Source of the DNA: Ekhidna sp.
GTDB taxonomy: Bacteria > Bacteroidota > Bacteroidia > Cytophagales > Cyclobacteriaceae
Direction of reading: 5' to 3'
NCBI GenBank assembly: GCA_013214445.1
Contig: JABSPG010000007.1
Coordinates: 1 to 41,904, forward strand
Length of the DNA stretch: 41,904 nt
A program made the translations under genes and the position numbers. Of this stretch, positions 8,956 through 38,496 are shown in pieces. Positions within the stretch are counted from its first letter, which is position 1; each line of letters begins with the position of its first letter. The notes beneath the pieces were generated by a model that worked only from the letters and a program-made list of their open reading frames with translations, did no database searches and was not told the origin of the DNA.

Positions 8956-10318
8956 CTGTATTTCCTTTTTCTTTAAGTAAATGTCTTGGCTCAGGTGGCT
9001 TCTGAAATGGTACATCGTGTCCGAACAACTGCTCTTTGTTTATAAGCATCTGTGCATCTTCGGCTGTAATTATGTCAGAGTCAACTAGCATCTGTATAGG
9101 TTCTATCGTCTTCTTAATTCTCTCAGCCTTCTGTAAAGGAGACTCAGGGAATATTGGATTGAACTCATAACGTATCTTATCTATGCCATAGTGAGCTTCA
9201 ATAAGTTTATCAATTATCTTAAGTTTAGGTTTAAATATTGCTTTTTGCAAACCCATAAGTAAATCAATGTAGTTATTTAAATCACTCTCACCTGTAGCGT
9301 TCATGCCATCAGGAGAAGCAGATAAGAATCTAGTTGCAGGTATACCAACTGCGGCCGCTATAATACGTAGGTACTCCCAAATAAGGTCTTTAACCCCGTT
9401 TAGTTGTGCAGTCTTCGTACTGTATTCTTCTGTGCTATCTAATAGTAAGACGTTGTACAGAGATTTAAGTTGCTTCATAACTCGGAAGCGTTTCATTATC
9501 TGAGCTTCACCTTCCTCGCTAGTAAGAATGTCTTGTAGACCTTCAATACTAACTACATCAACAACAGCTTCTTGACACAATTGTGCAGCAGCCTTAGCAG
9601 ATGTATGGAAGTTATCTATTACCTCCATTAGCGGAATCAAGGTACTATCACTGTACCACTGGTTACGCATGAATTCATATAGAGGAAGTTCAGTTGCTTC
9701 AAAGCGAAGTAATCTAGAGTGATGTATAGATGATGCAGAGTTTACAAATTGGTAGTGAGTTGGAAGTCCATAAGTAGGACTCATTGGCTCAGTATCCATA
9801 GTTCCCATAGCATGCATACGAGTTCTATCTATCACTTGTAACGATTTTATACAGCCCTTCTTTAATCGTTTAAGATTAAGTGGCTTACTTAGAGGGCCTG
9901 AACCCTTTATGTCTAGTACTATAAAACAAGTGCCATACACTCTTGCCCACTTATATGCTTCTCTAAACTTATCAGCAATACATAATTCATCATCAGCATC
10001 TCTGCCTTCTTGACTCTCTATGTGTCTCCAAGTACGAGTCATATCTTGCGGTATTATATTACATACTTTCTGGGATACCCAATCCTCACGGTATCTAGCA
10101 GCCAGTTGAACCCAATCAAGGTTCTTACCAGAGTGAGTCCACTTGTTATAAACAGACTTATCATTTTCTCCACCCATACCACTTACGATATTCTCTAACC
10201 CATCATTCATTGTGATAGAACTAGAAGCAGATGAATGCTCTGGTGTTGCATCTTTAAGCACTTGTTGTTGTGCAGAATCTACAATTGCTTGCGCTATTAA
10301 AGTTTTTTGGGCTTCCAT
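8933..10318 (-). CDS. Phage portal protein (DUF1073 type)
   Basis: 461 aa; YREDWVSQKVCNIIPQDMTRTWRHIES...; ...PATRFLSASPDGMNATGESDLNNYIDLLMGLQKAIFKPKL. Confidence 0.8.
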   Translation of the reverse strand: MEAQKTLIAQAIVDSAQQQVLKDATPEHSSASSSITMNDGLENIVSGMGGENDKSVYNKWTHSGKNLDWVQLAARYREDWVSQKVCNIIPQDMTRTWRHIESQEGRDADDELCIADKFREAYKWARVYGTCFIVLDIKGSGPLSKPLNLKRLKKGCIKSLQVIDRTRMHAMGTMDTEPMSPTYGLPTHYQFVNSASSIHHSRLLRFEATELPLYEFMRNQWYSDSTLIPLMEVIDNFHTSAKAAAQLCQEAVVDVVSIEGLQDILTSEEGEAQIMKRFRVMKQLKSLYNVLLLDSTEEYSTKTAQLNGVKDLIWEYLRIIAAAVGIPATRFLSASPDGMNATGESDLNNYIDLLMGLQKAIFKPKLKIIDKLIEAHYGIDKIRYEFNPIFPESPLQKAERIKKTIEPIQMLVDSDIITAEDAQMLINKEQLFGHDVPFQKPPEPRHLLKEKGNTDAKKPSS

Positions 10319-25228: not shown

Positions 25229-25825
25229 TTACATCTCTTGTACTCTATTACTGTTTGTGTATACTAGTCTGTCTTTATATCTAGGCCAACCTTCATTAGC
25301 TATACGTTCAAGCCAGTACTTGTCAAGATATAGATGTGGGTAGAACTTCCAACCTTTATACTTAGCACGTGATTCTGTAGCACTTATAGGCACTAGTTCA
25401 AATTCACAGTATCTACGTTTACCGTCTACTACTGCACTAAATTTAAACCATATACGTTCACGTACTACAGTCTTCGTAGCCATGCTTGCATGTGAGTATC
25501 TAAAACTCTTATGGAAGGTATTGCCCTCAAATCTTATATCTGTAACGTGTTCTGGTAATGCGCTTAAGCTGCACCAACGTACATATCGCATATTCCATGC
25601 AGGGTTTCTTATAGCCTTCCAATAGTACTCAGTCCACCACTTGTCAGCTAGGTTAGGTCTATGCTCTTTTAGCCATACGTTGCCATCACCATCTTCTTTA
25701 TTATCCCACACAAAGAAGCACTGTTTAAATGTACCATCTTTATTCTTTAGTAGGATAGCTATAGGTACTATAAATAAACCTAAGAAGGTTAGTGCGATTT
25801 TATATATTAAATATTTATTCATCAC
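25229..25825 (-). CDS. Hypothetical membrane-anchored protein
   Basis: 198 aa; hydrophobic N-terminus YLIYKIALTFLGLFIVPIAIL. Confidence 0.55.
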   Translation of the reverse strand: MMNKYLIYKIALTFLGLFIVPIAILLKNKDGTFKQCFFVWDNKEDGDGNVWLKEHRPNLADKWWTEYYWKAIRNPAWNMRYVRWCSLSALPEHVTDIRFEGNTFHKSFRYSHASMATKTVVRERIWFKFSAVVDGKRRYCEFELVPISATESRAKYKGWKFYPHLYLDKYWLERIANEGWPRYKDRLVYTNSNRVQEM

Positions 25826-26050
25826 TTATTTCCCTTTAACATCAATAGCATTCAAAATACTCATAGCAAGTTCATATGCTTGGTAGTTGTCCAGTTCATG
25901 GTAGAATGTGGGTCTGTCAGCAGGTGGCAGTATATTACCCTCACCATCTGATTTATCTGTAAACTTGAAGGATATGCCAGCACCCATAGTAATTTCACTA
26001 TGCAGTTCTATATCACACCAATCAAATTCTAACTTTAGTTGCTTATGCAT
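25826..26050 (-). CDS. Hypothetical protein
   Basis: 74 aa ORF. Confidence 0.4.
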   Translation of the reverse strand: MHKQLKLEFDWCDIELHSEITMGAGISFKFTDKSDGEGNILPPADRPTFYHELDNYQAYELAMSILNAIDVKGK

Positions 26051-26273
26051 ATTGCCTCCTAATATTTATTTTTCCGTTTATGTTCAGCACACCGTTATAT
26101 GCAAATTTGCATCCAGTTTCTGCATGAGTTTTATGTACTACATGTACACCTAACTGTTTAAGCTTCTTCTTTAGAAACTCTATCTCAGCTAGCGTAGCAC
26201 TACGTAAACCTACAACTGACTTCTTACGTCTGTTCTGTTTAGTTCTTTCTACTACTTTGTGTCCGTAGTACAT
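26043..26273 (-). CDS. Hypothetical protein
   Basis: ORF 26043..26363; start MYYGHKVVERTKQNRRKK preferred because upstream codons overlap the tRNA-like gene. Confidence 0.4.
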   Translation of the reverse strand: MYYGHKVVERTKQNRRKKSVVGLRSATLAEIEFLKKKLKQLGVHVVHKTHAETGCKFAYNGVLNINGKINIRRQYA

Positions 26274-26293
26274 AAGTACTCCTATTAAATTGA

Positions 26294-26409
26294 TAGAGGG
26301 TGTAGGATTCGAACCTACGGGATTACTGTTCAAGTACTTAGAAGTACAAGGAATCTCCAACACGCCTTTGGATACGTTTGCTTGCCTTAAGCCACTCAGC
26401 CAACCCTCT
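26294..26409 (-). tRNA. tRNA-like gene 1 (class II-like, oversized, anticodon not assignable)
   Basis: Acceptor AGAGGGT/ACCCTCT, D-arm TGGCTGAGTGGCTTAAGGCAAGC, T-arm GTAGG-TTCGAAT-CCTAC. About 115 nt; TCCAA-AGGCGTG-TTGGA stem has no U33. Confidence 0.6.
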
Positions 26410-26417
26410 TTAAAATG

Positions 26418-26546
26418 CTCTTACAACTATATACTAATCAGCCCCTATAAGGACACTATCTGATTTTAGTCCTACTCGGTCAGGGTAGTATATATGTGTA
26501 AGAACACTGCCTATCTGGACAATACCATCTTTGAGTATTCTTACAT
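26418..26546 (-). ncRNA. Structured leader module upstream of tRNA-like 1
   Basis: TGTAAGAA (26545-26538) and GTATATAGTTGTAAG (26434-26420) both complementary to AGTGTTCTTACACATATATAC (26508-26488). Confidence 0.5.
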
Positions 26547-26638
26547 CTATTTATGACACTCCACACTGTCACACGTTGCTTTTACGTACGCTATTACAAC
26601 CATCGGTACTGCATAGATACAGCTTTCTTGCTTAAAAT

Positions 26639-26718
26639 TGGTGGACAGAAGCGGGTTCGAACCGCTACCAGTGCATATTTCATAGATGCCTAGACCTCCC
26701 AATTGGCCTCACCTGCCC
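26639..26718 (-). tRNA. tRNA-like gene 2 with encoded CCA (anticodon ambiguous)
   Basis: Acceptor GGGCAGG/TCTGTCC + ACCA; D-arm GGCC-AATTGGGA-GGTC; T-arm AGCGG-TTCGAAC-CCGCT. Anticodon arm GCAT-CTATGAAAT-ATGC has only 4 bp and a 9-nt loop. Confidence 0.7.
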
Positions 26719-26725
26719 GTTAAAT

Positions 26726-26868
26726 GTTCTTACAAAAGGCTCTATTAAAGTGTACACCACCTCCTATCTATCTATGTTCTGCCGTCACATTGCATAGTTA
26801 TCATCCTAACCTCTGTTAGTAGGAGTATAGAGCTTTTGTAAGAACACTAGTATTTAAGTGTCTTACAA
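26726..26868 (-). ncRNA. Structured leader module upstream of tRNA-like 2
   Basis: TTGTAAGACACT (26868-26857) and ATAGAGCCTTTTGTAAGAAC (26745-26726) both complementary to AGTGTTCTTACAAAAGCTCTAT (26848-26827). Confidence 0.55.
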
Positions 26869-27104
26869 GTCAATTTATATGTAGACAGTTTCACAACTTG
26901 TCTAGGTCGTTTCTACCCTTTATAACGCTCCGCATACTTCACTGTTATACTCTAGCTAGTTGAGCCTACACCATCTTTATACAGTACTAAGGCACTTAAG
27001 CTACTCAGTAGGTGTCTGTAGGCATGTCACTGCTTAGAAGGATAAATTCTTAACGTCTCATTTAACATTTACGAGTAGTTTTGAGTGTATTACTATCCAC
27101 TTTA

Positions 27105-27227
27105 ATTACACTTGCGGTCAAGGCGTAACGACTACGAATCGAATACCTATCAAGGCGTGTAATGAGTTCCTGCTGCTAGGTCGCAATTAATAACCAATAA
27201 GGAGGAATAAAAAGGTATTGCAGCAGG
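27105..27227. repeat. Inverted and direct repeats 3' of primase-helicase
   Basis: attacac/gtgtaat (27105, 27157), direct repeat tcaaggcgt x2, cctgctgc/gcagcagg (27169, 27220). Confidence 0.6.
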
Positions 27228-27251
27228 GAGCTTTCGCCCACAGTTGTTGTG

Positions 27252-28940
27252 TTAAATCTTCTTATCTTCATACATTTCATTTTCCCATTCCTTTTGGAAT
27301 AGTCTACCTGTGTACGGGTCATAGTAAGTTTTAACGAAGCCTGTCTTACCAAACTTACGAGCTTTAACTATACGTATTAATGAACAGTTAGGGTCGTTAG
27401 CTTGTTGGTTACGTTCGAAACCTAACATAGCATGGCTATATCTTTGCAACGCTCTTGAGCCTGTGAACTGGTTAGGTTTAACTACACCACCACTTTCATG
27501 AGGTCTAGAGTTCTTATCAGGTGCATTAAGATGGCTATACAAGAAGAAAGTTATTTTAAACTTCTTACCCATATCTACACAATCTTTAGCCAAAGAACCT
27601 ATGAAATCATTACGTTCTGTAGCAGACATGCCCTCTGTCAATGTAGTCAAGTTATCTATAAATACATTGTCTAGGTAATGTGCTTTAGACTTAATCATTT
27701 GCTTCATAGAAGTCCAATCAGTCTCAGGGTCTACTGACTCTTCACTATCCCATAGCTCTATGTTATCAGATAGCCTCATAGCTGTAGCTCTAAACTGGTC
27801 ACGGTCGAAGTCTGTATCAGGCACATGGTAAGTAATAGAATCTACTTTACCTGCTATGTTCTGTACTGACTCTATCTTGGTCTCTTCTAGAAACATACCT
27901 AGTGAGTTCCAACCATGCTCTAAAGCATTGTGTGCAGCTAGTTCATGTGCAGTTAGTGTTTTACCACTACCTGTACCACCACCTATAGAGATTACTTCAC
28001 CTAGTCGCTGTCCATAGAATTGGTCTGTTAACCACTTCCAAGGGTAAGATAATCCCCACTTTACAGGTTCAAGTGCTTCCTCAATAATAGATGATATTTG
28101 AATAGCTTGTACATCTAACTCAGCTGACGCTCTAAATATTACAGCATCACGAGTAGCTTTAAGTTTACCTTCTTGCAGACACTTATTAGCATCTTTGTAA
28201 GGCAACGTAGCAGACATACATTTAGGTAGTATGCGCTTAACATCTTTAGCAGCAGCCTTACCTTGTTCATCACCATCAAATACAAGTACTACATTTTCCC
28301 ATATTGCTTCTATTTCCTTTAAGTGTTTAGCAATACACTTACGTGCATCTTTAACACCTCTAGGTAGAGACACTACAGCATAGTCATTGTTTTTGTACTG
28401 TGCACTATTCATTTCTCTAAGGATATGTCTTAATGCAATTGCATCTTCTTCACCCTCAGTTATGTATAAGTATTTACCACCAATCTTCTTAGCGATTTCC
28501 CAACCATATAAGTCAGCACCTTGTGTATTACCTACACTCCACATTACCTTCTTATTAAGCAGCTTGACTTTATAGCCTGATAGCTTCTTGTTACAAGTAA
28601 ATGGGTGTGCAATAGCATAAGGAGTTTTACCATCATACTCATTGTATAACAGCTTAACATGATAGAAGTCCCAGTCTTCAATAGGGATAGCACGATGGTT
28701 ATAGTGCAAGCTTCCACACGCACGTATCTCCTGTATATCTTCAGCTATTTCTGCTTGAGACTTCTTTACTACTTTAGTAGGGTCAGGTGGGTTATCACCA
28801 TAAGGGTCTTTTACAAAGCTTCCACAACTGAAACAAGTACCTGTGAAGGTGTCGTTATCGTTTACAAAGACCTGTAAAGATTTATTAGGTGAGCTACAAT
28901 TAGGGTCGTCATGAAATATCTTTTCGTAACAGGATGACAT
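27252..28940 (-). CDS. T7 gp4-like primase-helicase
   Basis: Zn-binding N-terminus, TOPRIM YITEGEEDAIALRHIL / VVLVFDGDEQGKAAA, Walker A SIGGGTGSGKTLTAHELA. Confidence 0.9.
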   Translation of the reverse strand: MSSCYEKIFHDDPNCSSPNKSLQVFVNDNDTFTGTCFSCGSFVKDPYGDNPPDPTKVVKKSQAEIAEDIQEIRACGSLHYNHRAIPIEDWDFYHVKLLYNEYDGKTPYAIAHPFTCNKKLSGYKVKLLNKKVMWSVGNTQGADLYGWEIAKKIGGKYLYITEGEEDAIALRHILREMNSAQYKNNDYAVVSLPRGVKDARKCIAKHLKEIEAIWENVVLVFDGDEQGKAAAKDVKRILPKCMSATLPYKDANKCLQEGKLKATRDAVIFRASAELDVQAIQISSIIEEALEPVKWGLSYPWKWLTDQFYGQRLGEVISIGGGTGSGKTLTAHELAAHNALEHGWNSLGMFLEETKIESVQNIAGKVDSITYHVPDTDFDRDQFRATAMRLSDNIELWDSEESVDPETDWTSMKQMIKSKAHYLDNVFIDNLTTLTEGMSATERNDFIGSLAKDCVDMGKKFKITFFLYSHLNAPDKNSRPHESGGVVKPNQFTGSRALQRYSHAMLGFERNQQANDPNCSLIRIVKARKFGKTGFVKTYYDPYTGRLFQKEWENEMYEDKKI

Positions 28941-31262: not shown

Positions 31263-31616
31263 TTAGCTCTGTTTCCCAACAGTACTTAATTCTTCTAATA
31301 CAAGACCGAACAAGTAATGAGATACCTGTTGTACAGTATTGCTAGGGTCAGCTTCTGCTGCTGTGCCCATTTGACTCCATAAGAATCCTAAAGCATCACG
31401 AGTAATACCTTGTGCAATTAAAGCTGATGTGTACTGTGTTAAGTACCTCACTGTAGCTGCTTCGGTGTCTTCGTTCTTACCTTGAATAACTAGCACAACT
31501 GCTGCACCAGTGAATACACCTTGCAATATACAAGTTGCTTCTGCTGTTACATCTACAGTACTTTGTTCAGTGCTGGTATCGGTGTTGCTGTTAGTGTGTT
31601 CAATATTTTCTGACAT
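31263..31616 (-). CDS. Hypothetical protein
   Basis: 117 aa ORF. Confidence 0.45.
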   Translation of the reverse strand: MSENIEHTNSNTDTSTEQSTVDVTAEATCILQGVFTGAAVVLVIQGKNEDTEAATVRYLTQYTSALIAQGITRDALGFLWSQMGTAAEADPSNTVQQVSHYLFGLVLEELSTVGKQS

Positions 31617-32137
31617 TCTTTTGTATCCCAGTTAAGTTCATTTGCAAGTTTAATATTCTTTTCGTATCTCTCAGCAGGTATAATTGCACCGTCCAATACT
31701 GTTAAAGTACCAAAGTCTGCACTGTTACTAGGTAAGTACATAGGTGATGTATCACCTAACATAATAAACTGATTAATATTAAAGTCGAAGTTACCTAATA
31801 CATTAGTTATATCCATAAATGGTGCATTCCAAAGTACTATATCTATATTACCTTGTATCTTCATAACTTCACGCACACGAGGGTCGCCACTAGCACTAGG
31901 TGCTTCCGACTCATCAAACGCATTAACTAATAAGCCGCATTCATCTAGGTCTAATCTGAACCCTAGCCAGTCTATATACTCAGTATTGCCACAGACAATA
32001 ATATCTAAATCTTTTGGTGTTCGTCCAAAATGCAAGTCGCGAGGGTATCCACCTGCAACTGTCATATGTATATCATGTTTAGCTGCTAATGCTACTACCT
32101 GTTTATATTCAGGACTTAAGTGTATTTCATTACTCAT
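31553..32137 (-). CDS. Nucleotidyltransferase-fold protein (poly(A)-polymerase/CCA head-domain-like)
   Basis: VAGGYPRDLHFGRTPKDLDIIVCG: GGxxRD...DLDI. Confidence 0.7.
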   Translation of the reverse strand: MSNEIHLSPEYKQVVALAAKHDIHMTVAGGYPRDLHFGRTPKDLDIIVCGNTEYIDWLGFRLDLDECGLLVNAFDESEAPSASGDPRVREVMKIQGNIDIVLWNAPFMDITNVLGNFDFNINQFIMLGDTSPMYLPSNSADFGTLTVLDGAIIPAERYEKNIKLANELNWDTKECQKILNTLTATPIPALNKVL

Positions 32138-33484: not shown

Positions 33485-33558
33485 TGGTGTGTACTGGAAT
33501 CGAACCAGTGTCCGTGCTACATACTGTCGCGTGCTCTACCTACTGAGCTTCACACACC
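33485..33558 (-). tRNA. tRNA-like gene 3 (positional anticodon GTA, anticodon stem poorly paired)
   Basis: Acceptor GGTGTGT/ACACACC, D-arm GCTC-AGTAGGTA-GAGC, T-arm ACTGG-TTCGATT-CCAGT; anticodon arm CGCGA-CAGTATG-TAGCA, A at 33. Confidence 0.7.
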
Positions 33559-33568
33559 TATAATAAGT

Positions 33569-34009
33569 TTAGCTTGTACGTTTCTTTGCAGATTTCTTTA
33601 AACGCTTGCCAGTATAACCTGACTTGCTTGTTACCTTTTGGAATAGTATACCTGTGTATGGGTCATAGTAAGTTTTAACGGAGCCTGTCTTACCAAACTT
33701 ACGTGCTTTGGTTATACGAATCAATGCGCAGTTAGGGTCTATAGCCTGTTGATTACGTTCAAAACCGATATGTTTAATAGTAGTTTCACTATCTTTATAC
33801 TCTAAAGGTTTATCTTTGCTAGATGATTCTACAATAGCACTATACATTAGCTGCATCTTGTTTAATATATTCATGATAGATTTTCCTCTACGTTCAAAAC
33901 CGATATGTTTAATAGTAGTTTCACTATCTTTATACTCTAAAGGTTTATCTTTGCTAGATGATTCTACAATAGCACTATACATTAGCTGCATCTTGTTTAA
34001 TATATTCAT
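33569..34009 (-). pseudogene. Chimeric ORF: duplicated 45-aa segment fused to a primase-helicase C-terminal fragment
   Basis: FERNQQAIDPNCALIRITKARKFGKTGSVKTYYDPYTGILFQK matches the helicase C-terminus at 27.3 kb; N-terminal part is tandemly duplicated. Confidence 0.75.
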
Positions 34010-36232: not shown

Positions 36233-38191
36233 TCAGGCACAAAAGTACGAGCTATCTTTATGGTTTAATATCTCCTCAGTAACGATTGGGGTGTACTGTG
36301 GCATTACTGGACGACCTAGTATCTTCATAAGATGTACATGTTGGTCGTTATCAATAAATACTTCTTTATAAGCTGACGCAATAACTGCTTTAAGCTTAGG
36401 AGCATCTAATAAAGTAGTTCTGAAACAATCATGTATAGATGTAAAAGCCTTCAAGCCAGCTTTCTTTGCGTGTACAATAACAGTACGAGCAACTAAAGCA
36501 TCTAGACCTTGGATATAGTTTACAAGGAAAGTACGTACATATTCCTCAGCAGTAGGTTGTGCAGCTTTAACTGTCCAACTACCCTCAGCCTTACCAAAAT
36601 GCATTCTCTTACCTGCTCCAAGGAACAAGCTAAATGAAGGACATACTTCGATAGTAGGTTTAGCAGGTTTAAATACTTGTAAACCATCTGTATGTCTATA
36701 CGTGATATATTCTTTACCTGCTAACTCTAGGTTAACCTTTAAAGTATCTTGTACAGTAGTCTTAAGGTTATTAATCTTAACACCCATAGCTTCATTAATA
36801 GCTTCAATACAATCTTTAGCTACTTGTTGCATATCATTACTTAGTATACCTGCATCACGTAAGTTCTGTAAGTTATCTTTAGAAGTAAGTAAAGCACGTT
36901 CACCACCACCATACTGTACAGCCATGTAAGGTGTTTTGATAAAGCTACGTGAAGCAAAGTCATAACCAAACTTCTCAAGTAATTTCTTTGCAGACATTAC
37001 ATAAGGGTCAGTAGTTTCAGACTTAGGCTTAGTAGTAATACCTGTAGCTTCACCCATTTCAGCATCACCTGCTAAGATAGCAAAGTACTGTGTACCAGAA
37101 CAACGAGCATCTAAGCCAAAACCTAGACGTGAATCACATTTACCTGTGTTCTCGAAATCAGCGAAATCAAGAGCCATACGTACTAATGTAAAAGGCTTCT
37201 TAGGACAATCTTGACGTGTAGCTAGGTCAGTAGACAAAGACTTCTTAAGTGACTGGAACAAGAATTCAATTGGATTATTGGCAACTCGCATTAAGTACTT
37301 ACTGTCTTGGAACTTCTTACCACCTGCACAATCATCTAGTTCGTCTAAGAACATGTTGTATGATTCTGTTGTTTCTACACCTGCGCCAGTTTCTACAGCA
37401 TGTGTTTGATACTTACTTACAAAGTTCTCTACATTATGAGCATATAAAGAACGAGCTAAATCACTAGATTGTGGGTTAGCACCTGCACAAGCTTCATGGT
37501 ATAATCTACCACGTACATCAGCATCATAAGGAGAAGTTAAGATAGGCTCATCCTTCATAGTTTCACAACCAGTTAAGATGTAACCGTATCCATCTAATTC
37601 CATCATTATAGAATTACGTAGGTCTGACATTGGCATAGCTTTAACTCTACCAATTACTTGACCGATTATGTTAAGCATATCACCGTGTACATGATACTCA
37701 GTTGCTTGTAAATGTTGGATTGCTTCCTTAAGTAATTTACTAGGCTTAACCTTTCCACCTTTTACATAGTTAGTAAGACGATTAGCATCATCAAACTTAC
37801 CAGTAGCAGGTAATGTAACATTCTTAGCAAGTACCATCTCATTCCATTTAGGAGTAAGTTGTACAGTGCCATCTTCATTAACAACAAGTAAGTTAAGAGT
37901 TTTAGCAACAGATACTAAAGCACTAGCATTACCTGCTAATGTAATATCTTGGTTAAGTCTACGTACACGGTCTAAATGATAATCTAACTGTACCATTAAA
38001 GAGTCTAGTTCTAACGCTGTATCAAGTGGTAACTCAACAAATGACCAAGTAATAGCAAGAGCTACACAAGCACATTTTTCAGGAGTATGTATATTGATTT
38101 TAGAGCTAGTATAAATAGCACTAGTTAAAGTAGGAGTTACGTTAGAAGTGATACGTTGAGCGTTTTGTAAGTTTAAAGTAATTTGAGTCAT
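36233..38191 (-). CDS. Single-subunit T7-like RNA polymerase (short, divergent)
   Basis: Motif A LGFGLDARCSGTQYFAIL, motif B KTPYMAVQYGGGERA, motif C FTSIHDCFRTTLLDA, C-terminus YFCA; start MTQITLNLQNAQR preferred. Confidence 0.85.
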   Translation of the reverse strand: MTQITLNLQNAQRITSNVTPTLTSAIYTSSKINIHTPEKCACVALAITWSFVELPLDTALELDSLMVQLDYHLDRVRRLNQDITLAGNASALVSVAKTLNLLVVNEDGTVQLTPKWNEMVLAKNVTLPATGKFDDANRLTNYVKGGKVKPSKLLKEAIQHLQATEYHVHGDMLNIIGQVIGRVKAMPMSDLRNSIMMELDGYGYILTGCETMKDEPILTSPYDADVRGRLYHEACAGANPQSSDLARSLYAHNVENFVSKYQTHAVETGAGVETTESYNMFLDELDDCAGGKKFQDSKYLMRVANNPIEFLFQSLKKSLSTDLATRQDCPKKPFTLVRMALDFADFENTGKCDSRLGFGLDARCSGTQYFAILAGDAEMGEATGITTKPKSETTDPYVMSAKKLLEKFGYDFASRSFIKTPYMAVQYGGGERALLTSKDNLQNLRDAGILSNDMQQVAKDCIEAINEAMGVKINNLKTTVQDTLKVNLELAGKEYITYRHTDGLQVFKPAKPTIEVCPSFSLFLGAGKRMHFGKAEGSWTVKAAQPTAEEYVRTFLVNYIQGLDALVARTVIVHAKKAGLKAFTSIHDCFRTTLLDAPKLKAVIASAYKEVFIDNDQHVHLMKILGRPVMPQYTPIVTEEILNHKDSSYFCA

Positions 38192-38259
38192 TTGATGGTT
38201 TCTCTGTATTAAGTTAAGTTGTATTAAGTATAAGTATATGTATAAGTATGTATTAAGTG

Positions 38260-38496
38260 TTAGTATTCTATCTGACAAGTACCATTAGCAGTACTTATAT
38301 CTTTACGTTCTATACCTTGTGCTATGTAAGTTCTTACACAAGCTGATTCTGATTGGTAAGCTTCGTAGTCAGCCTTAATTAACTGTCCAGTATTATATAG
38401 CGATATAGATAAGAGACTAACTATAGTCACTATAAAAGCTATGTATGTAGTTGTATTACTATGTATATTCGATAGTTTCATGTTATTTAACTCCAT
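38260..38496 (-). CDS. Small membrane protein
   Basis: 78 aa, TM IAFIVTIVSLLSISL. Confidence 0.45.
   Translation of the reverse strand: MELNNMKLSNIHSNTTTYIAFIVTIVSLLSISLYNTGQLIKADYEAYQSESACVRTYIAQGIERKDISTANGTCQIEY

Follow-up and report, generated by a model that had tools for sequence, protein, structure and literature searches.

The window, a 41,904-nt stretch of contig JABSPG010000007.1 from an assembly assigned to Ekhidna sp. (GCA_013214445.1), represents a myophage encoding a tail sheath, a single-subunit RNA polymerase, a primase/helicase and a T7-like polymerase. The characters used to recognise Chaseviridae were present, namely the contractile tail (sheath), the single-subunit RNA polymerase and a primase/helicase 45-53% identical to those of family members and nearest to Nefertitivirinae, e.g. 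Vibrio phage VPs20 and Aeromonas phage BUCT696. Judged by its encoded proteins, the phage is a divergent relative of Chaseviridae. The primase/helicase stop codon is followed by about 960 nt of noncoding DNA; in the Aeromonas members of the family the next gene begins within about 10 nt of this stop. No split of the primase gene by an intron was found, as the protein aligned with its relatives up to the end. Close to the left end of the contig, near-perfect 24-nt tandem repeats were noticed (293-389).

The minus strand at 26868-26291 carries two modules, each consisting of a TGTAAGA segment (i), the 12-mer AGTGTTCTTACA (ii), a second TGTAAGA segment (iii) and a tRNA-like sequence (Table 1), and probably constitutes a noncoding RNA locus of this Chaseviridae-like phage, built of two tandem units. 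The order of elements given in the preliminary description was found in full, twice, at the positions reported there. The duplexes between elements (ii) and (iii) were also present, with different dimensions. In copy 2, 22 bp with one bulged C were found in place of the 19 bp with a bulged G, and the duplex of copy 1 comprised 12 and 9 bp (21 bp) flanking a 2x2 internal loop and not 13 bp with a 2-nt internal loop. About 4 nt separate the duplexes from the acceptor stem, so that the spacing of about 8 nt between the (iii) segment and the tRNA-like gene was not upheld.

Table 1. Location of the features in the window and, where a genome handle (L number) is given, in related phages; (i), (ii) and (iii) are the leader elements defined in the text.
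Feature	Location	Strand	Remarks
Single-subunit RNA polymerase gene	36233-38278		
DNA primase/helicase	27252..28940	-	phylogenetic anchor
Remaining noncoding stretch, primase/helicase stop to modules	26869..27250	-	more inverted repeats inside
Copy 2 element (i), TTGTAAGACACT	26868-26857	-	pairing with (ii) possible; sequence and prefix folding
Copy 2 element (ii)	26848-26837	-	5' arm of leader duplex 26827..26848, AGTGTTCTTACAAAAGCTCTAT
Copy 2 element (iii)	26735-26720	-	3' arm of leader duplex 26723..26745, ATAGAGCCTTTTGTAAGAACATT, with the bulged C
tRNA-like RNA 2	26718-26643	-	76 nt; acceptor of 7 bp including G3.U70; T arm perfect; D-like arm
Copy 1 element (i), TGTAAGAATACT	26545-26534	-	sequence and prefix folding
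Copy 1 element (ii)	26508-26497	-	5' arm of leader duplex 26486..26508
Copy 1 element (iii)	26426-26410	-	3' arm of leader duplex 26414..26436
tRNA-like RNA 1	26409-26295	-	115 nt, class II/serine-like D region, degenerate anticodon arm
Third tRNA-like RNA	33558-33486	-	73 nt, 7-bp acceptor, perfect T arm, non-canonical anticodon arm
Erwinia phage Faunus (L012) tRNA-like genes	L012 977-1059, 1339-1435, 1442-1544, 1622-1726		not called by ARAGORN
Escherichia phage 4HA13 (L058) tRNA-like genes	L058 5385-5481, 5492-5598		not called by ARAGORN
Cleopatravirinae pseudoknot	L012 1289-1331, L010 2032-2077, L058 5335-5377, L059 4558-4605, L055 6971-7013, others		
GATTAG hairpin RNA	L012 851-940, L006 2199-2283, L010 1284-1368, L028 13099-13185, L029 2532-2617, L033 665-757		

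The tRNA-like genes were detected by a scan for a T arm of five pairs with a TTCRA loop and, behind it, 7 nt that complement a 7-mer farther upstream, which gave exactly three matches in the window in comparison with 0.01 expected in shuffled sequences. The acceptor stem (7/7 pairs), the T stem (5/5 pairs) and the TTCRA loop were intact in all three. None of them had, at the anticodon position, a 5-bp stem closing a 7-nt loop with U33 and purine 37; the two matches to this pattern within the three genes were placed in the D region and beside the extra arm. ARAGORN called no tRNA genes and no tmRNA in the window. The only Rfam match in the window was a tRNA match at 33486-33557 (31.5 bits, just over the threshold), and a search of the region both at the gathering threshold and at E<=10 added no other family.

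The 3' ends differed among the three genes. The RNA of copy 2, in which the 7-nt anticodon loop was missing from its place, is directly followed by an encoded ACCA (26642-26639), that of copy 1, which has a very large extra arm, by ATCA (26294-26291), and the third gene ends in ACCC, so that a CCA end in the latter two would need repair. Copy 2, the only window gene with G3.U70, combines it with G1-C72, G2-C71, A73 and CCA. By this set, alanyl-tRNA synthetase recognises tRNA-Ala, minihelices and tmRNA with no need for an anticodon. The window also encodes a nucleotidyltransferase (31553-32137; phrog_1614) with weak similarity to the head of poly(A) polymerases/CCA enzymes, which could matter for the CCA ends of the tRNA-like RNAs. 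A partial copy of the primase/helicase C terminus (33569-34009, 72% identity over 57 aa), containing an internal tandem repeat, was located directly upstream of the third gene.

The significance of the leader structures was evaluated against chance. Compared with dinucleotide shuffles of the 220-nt leader to which each belongs, the copy 2 duplex reached a z of -4.5, with 0 of 200 shuffles as strong, and the copy 1 duplex a z of -2.8 (p 0.015); the third tRNA-like gene showed no significant long leader duplex in the shuffle test. The 12-mer occurred twice in the 4.9-Mb assembly, both times at the module locus. Exact 7-mer A-B-A triples were found 12 times in the window, with 8.3 expected, and due to this chance level the three-segment layout by itself says little. 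A BLAST search of the region against 50,697 phage records matched only the flanking primase and no module homologue, and no match was obtained between the noncoding regions of the window and of Cleopatravirinae, either by BLAST or with covariance models R1 and R2. Viral contigs scanned for the pattern TTGTAAGARCATTTNAA gave at least 120 matches, none of which, among the matches listed, adjoined a tRNA-like sequence. With no sequence homologue of the modules, selection could be judged only between the two copies. Their leader interiors were unrelated, with little in common beyond the motif, and the distal halves of (ii) and (iii) were likewise unrelated in sequence but paired in both copies. 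For this reason the (ii):(iii) helix looks selected, the paired distal halves being the best evidence for it.

To place the locus in the context of the family, the scan was applied to about 40 Chaseviridae loci, where 31 non-redundant tRNA-like genes were identified, in comparison with 0 in 658 kb of family sequence after shuffling. Some of these were ordinary tRNAs, and many were 80-130 nt long and had no anticodon arm; overall the relatives' RNAs spanned 59-130 nt and were mostly missed by ARAGORN. Cultured members are among the carriers, for example Faunus with four unannotated genes and 4HA13 with two (Table 1). According to its genome paper (PMC9699118), Escherichia phage 4HA13 has no tRNA genes, whereas two conserved, unannotated tRNA-like genes and a conserved pseudoknot were found in this phage. 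In a family of five related tRNA-like genes, all acceptor, D and T pairs were kept (100% of cells, with at most 53% in slid controls) and two acceptor pairs were changed on both sides. Other homologue pairs had acceptors that differed in sequence and were still paired. Because of this complete pairing and the compensatory acceptor changes, the relatives' tRNA-like genes are probably maintained RNAs rather than debris. In the literature searched (most subscription journals and preprints lay outside its scope), neither anticodon-less tRNA-like RNAs nor the pseudoknot were described in these phages.

Structured leaders were found in the family as well, of a different kind. The leader of Cleopatravirinae, of about 45 nt, has the form CAAGCCTCGCAG-TT-(S2)-CTGCGTTANCAAAAC-(S2') and was recognised by inspection as an H-type pseudoknot. 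It occurred once per genome (E 1e-9 to 1e-15 with covariance model R2), had no match in Rfam, and its model found no match in the window. One covariation was observed in the first stem (CGCAG/CTGCG to CGCTG/CAGCG). The second stem formed 3-5 pairs in 12 of 12 sequences, across several different sequences, with a modest difference between its own pairing (mean 4.1 bp) and pairing of the loops with the tails of other genomes (3.0 bp). The RNA that follows the pseudoknot at 6-9 nt is tRNA-like or CCA-ended; the scan identified a tRNA-like RNA there in nine genomes, and one was also seen by eye in PP101. In VPs20, in the same place after the primase gene, a hairpin AAAGACGGG-CAG...CTG-CCCGTCTTT is accompanied by a short tRNA-like sequence whose T loop, TTCGAAT, is perfect; this is the closest positional counterpart of the modules, with no sequence similarity to them. 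As far as sequence comparison goes, the layout of a structured leader, a short gap and a tRNA-like RNA is one that recurs in the phage family, with leaders that are not homologous.

Several other candidate RNAs were noticed in the relatives. VPs20 (L022 9768-9832) and a metagenomic relative (L038 ~10085-10160) share a hairpin, GACGGGACAGCCTC...ATGCACAACTGCCCGTC, which follows the primase gene and differs in its interior between the two. The tRNA-like array of Faunus contains a CCA-ended RNA without a T arm (L012 1550-1620), whose two outer stems appear to covary. A version 76-78% identical to it lies within the tRNA cluster of Salmonella phage SJ2 of Ackermannviridae, in a section that carries no annotation (L085 705-772). 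A conserved hairpin RNA with a long variable closing helix, GATTAG, a covarying inner stem, GGGAGGNWGGCCGATGCCC and RTGGCCCAG gave twelve matches (E 1e-9 to 1e-23), with five pairs changed on both sides and no Rfam match. In Cleopatravirinae, about 1 kb of noncoding DNA upstream of thyX (L010 2592-3582, L011 2086-3063, L012 2213-3270) comprises modules 75-97% identical between genomes, whose order differs in some of them, probably representing several structured RNAs.

The preliminary description had proposed that the modules act as a cotranscriptional switch or processing signal controlling the release of the tRNA-like RNA. In such a switch, an early (i):(ii) pairing would give way to (ii):(iii), and the choice between the two would govern release. 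Both pairings, mutually exclusive, were predicted in both copies, and minimum free energy folding of growing prefixes reproduced the proposed order, with (i):(ii) forming first (-12.6 and -18.8 kcal/mol) and (ii):(iii) once element (iii) existed, although such thermodynamic folding yields this order for any repeat set of this kind and is not evidence of regulation. The 12-mer shared by the two copies and absent elsewhere in the assembly also speaks for a switch. Between the copies, however, (i):(ii) showed one one-sided change (C-G to U-G) plus an insertion and no two-sided compensatory change. Neither a terminator nor a start site on which a switch could act was found at the region, nor any excess of promoters or terminators explaining the motif, and the terminator/attenuator reading was rejected as no terminator-like site was present. 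The chance level of 7-mer triples and the far higher stability of (ii):(iii), with nothing visible to hold the first state, also argue against it. Relatives having the tRNA genes without the paired segments had been named as the observation that would speak against the proposal, and this was largely what was observed: in the leader-duplex test, one of 23 other Chaseviridae tRNA-like genes, an ordinary tRNA-Ile, reached p<=0.05, and most had no long duplex just upstream, which weakens the specific leader proposed. With no conserved counterpart in relatives, a conserved switch was not borne out; such a switch is rather improbable, and the (i):(ii) hairpin may be at most a transient folding intermediate.

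The degenerate anticodon arms, the ATCA and ACCC ends in two of the three genes and the scarcity of sequence shared by the two leaders beyond the motif could also be explained by decay, with acquired tRNAs now being pseudogenes and the duplicated leader a by-product of tandem duplication. Even decay is not expected to leave perfect acceptor and T stems in three of three genes, and the fully paired five-member family with its two compensatory acceptor changes, together with the differing yet paired acceptors of other homologues, speaks further against it; decay was considered unlikely. The AT-rich motif right before a G-rich start, in a phage encoding a single-subunit RNA polymerase, brings to mind a promoter of this enzyme. 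In it, TTGTAAGARCATTT(T)AA would precede GGG or AGAGGG, and transcription would start where the tRNA-like RNA has its 5' end. For the polymerases of Chaseviridae, no promoters are known (PMC12842549). Promoters of a phage are expected ahead of many genes, whereas the exact motif was present at two places only and matches with up to three mismatches came at a chance number (13 observed, 14.6 expected); this reading, which leaves the paired distal halves unexplained, is very unlikely. In both copies, elements (ii) and (iii) form 12-bp inverted repeats separated by about 100 nt, and could finally be the termini of a miniature mobile element inserted twice beside tRNA-like genes. The interiors were unrelated, the 4.9-Mb assembly held no further copies and the repeats continued inward with different sequences, which makes such an element highly improbable.

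The explanation proposed here, to which somewhat less than an even chance is given, is that the two-turn duplex would be a processing or insulation element and the tRNA-derived RNA a non-decoding mimic. The unit would be transcribed together with the primase-polymerase gene block, and the (ii):(iii) leader duplex, with about the minimal length of an RNase III substrate, would serve for processing or insulation. RNase P and maturation of the CCA end would then free a stable tRNA mimic working off the codon. It could decoy host proteins that bind or attack tRNAs, or serve as an aminoacyl carrier. The latter may apply to copy 2, whose G3.U70/A73 set is what AlaRS reads without an anticodon. A regular duplex of about two turns, as in RNase III sites, was present in both leaders, and from this duplex length only, RNase III-type processing is inferred. 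Processing or insulation is favoured over a switch because of the one-sided change in (i):(ii) and the missing terminator or promoter to act on. In support of a mimic, intact acceptor and T stems go together with a non-canonical anticodon arm in all three RNAs, contrary to what even decay would produce. Against the explanation speak the relatives' tRNA-like genes, most of which have no long duplex upstream, the ATCA and ACCC ends, and the restriction of G3.U70 to copy 2 among the window genes. The anatomy of the units, duplexes beyond chance, the tRNA-like arms and the occurrence of such RNAs across the family are established, whereas transcription, processing and function are proposed. In a wider sense, it is possible, though still doubtful, that Chaseviridae and their relatives make a so far undescribed class of tRNA mimics that end in CCA and lack an anticodon. 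Each would have a structured 5' leader, a pseudoknot in Cleopatravirinae and a two-turn duplex in the window phage, and their role would lie beyond decoding, such as decoying tRNA-targeting defence or donating aminoacyl groups. There is a fair chance that these would form a separate RNA class, beyond phage tRNA-derived RNAs.

Each known system resembles the locus in part. GOLLD and ROOL RNAs of phages, which occur near tRNA islands (PMC12286853), are likewise structured noncoding RNAs beside or containing tRNAs, but they are large, and the region consists of short units and not one large conserved fold, with no match to Rfam covariance models. The tRNA genes of T4, T5 and many myophages similarly have an acceptor stem, a T arm, a CCA or near-CCA end and a tandem arrangement, whereas the window RNAs are of aberrant size (73-115 nt), lack a canonical 7-nt anticodon loop and have individual structured leaders. 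The tRNA-like domain of tmRNA also lacks an anticodon arm and has the alanine identity set of copy 2 (G3.U70, A73). In contrast to tmRNA, the window RNAs have no tag reading frame and no pseudoknot ring, the leader and the tRNA-like part follow each other consecutively, and no tmRNA match was found in Rfam at 25800-28000 even at E<=10. In the 3' tRNA-like structures of plant viruses, a structured element or pseudoknot also lies directly 5' of the tRNA mimic, a likeness clearest for Cleopatravirinae and one of layout only, as the present case concerns an internal locus of a DNA phage without sequence relation. Hairpins processed by RNase III in T7-like phages are two-turn duplexes in a phage transcript too, whereas the window duplexes, which are predicted sites only, are placed singly before tRNA-like RNAs.

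The presence of tRNA genes in phages is usually explained by codon usage or by the replacement of tRNAs cut by defence nucleases. If real, tRNA-like RNAs that retain the acceptor and elbow and are unable to read codons would fit neither explanation well. They were overlooked because tRNA finders look for anticodon arms. Several members of Chaseviridae grow on laboratory E. coli, which makes the role of the mimics directly testable. Such RNAs would suggest that phage tRNA mimics have a role other than decoding.
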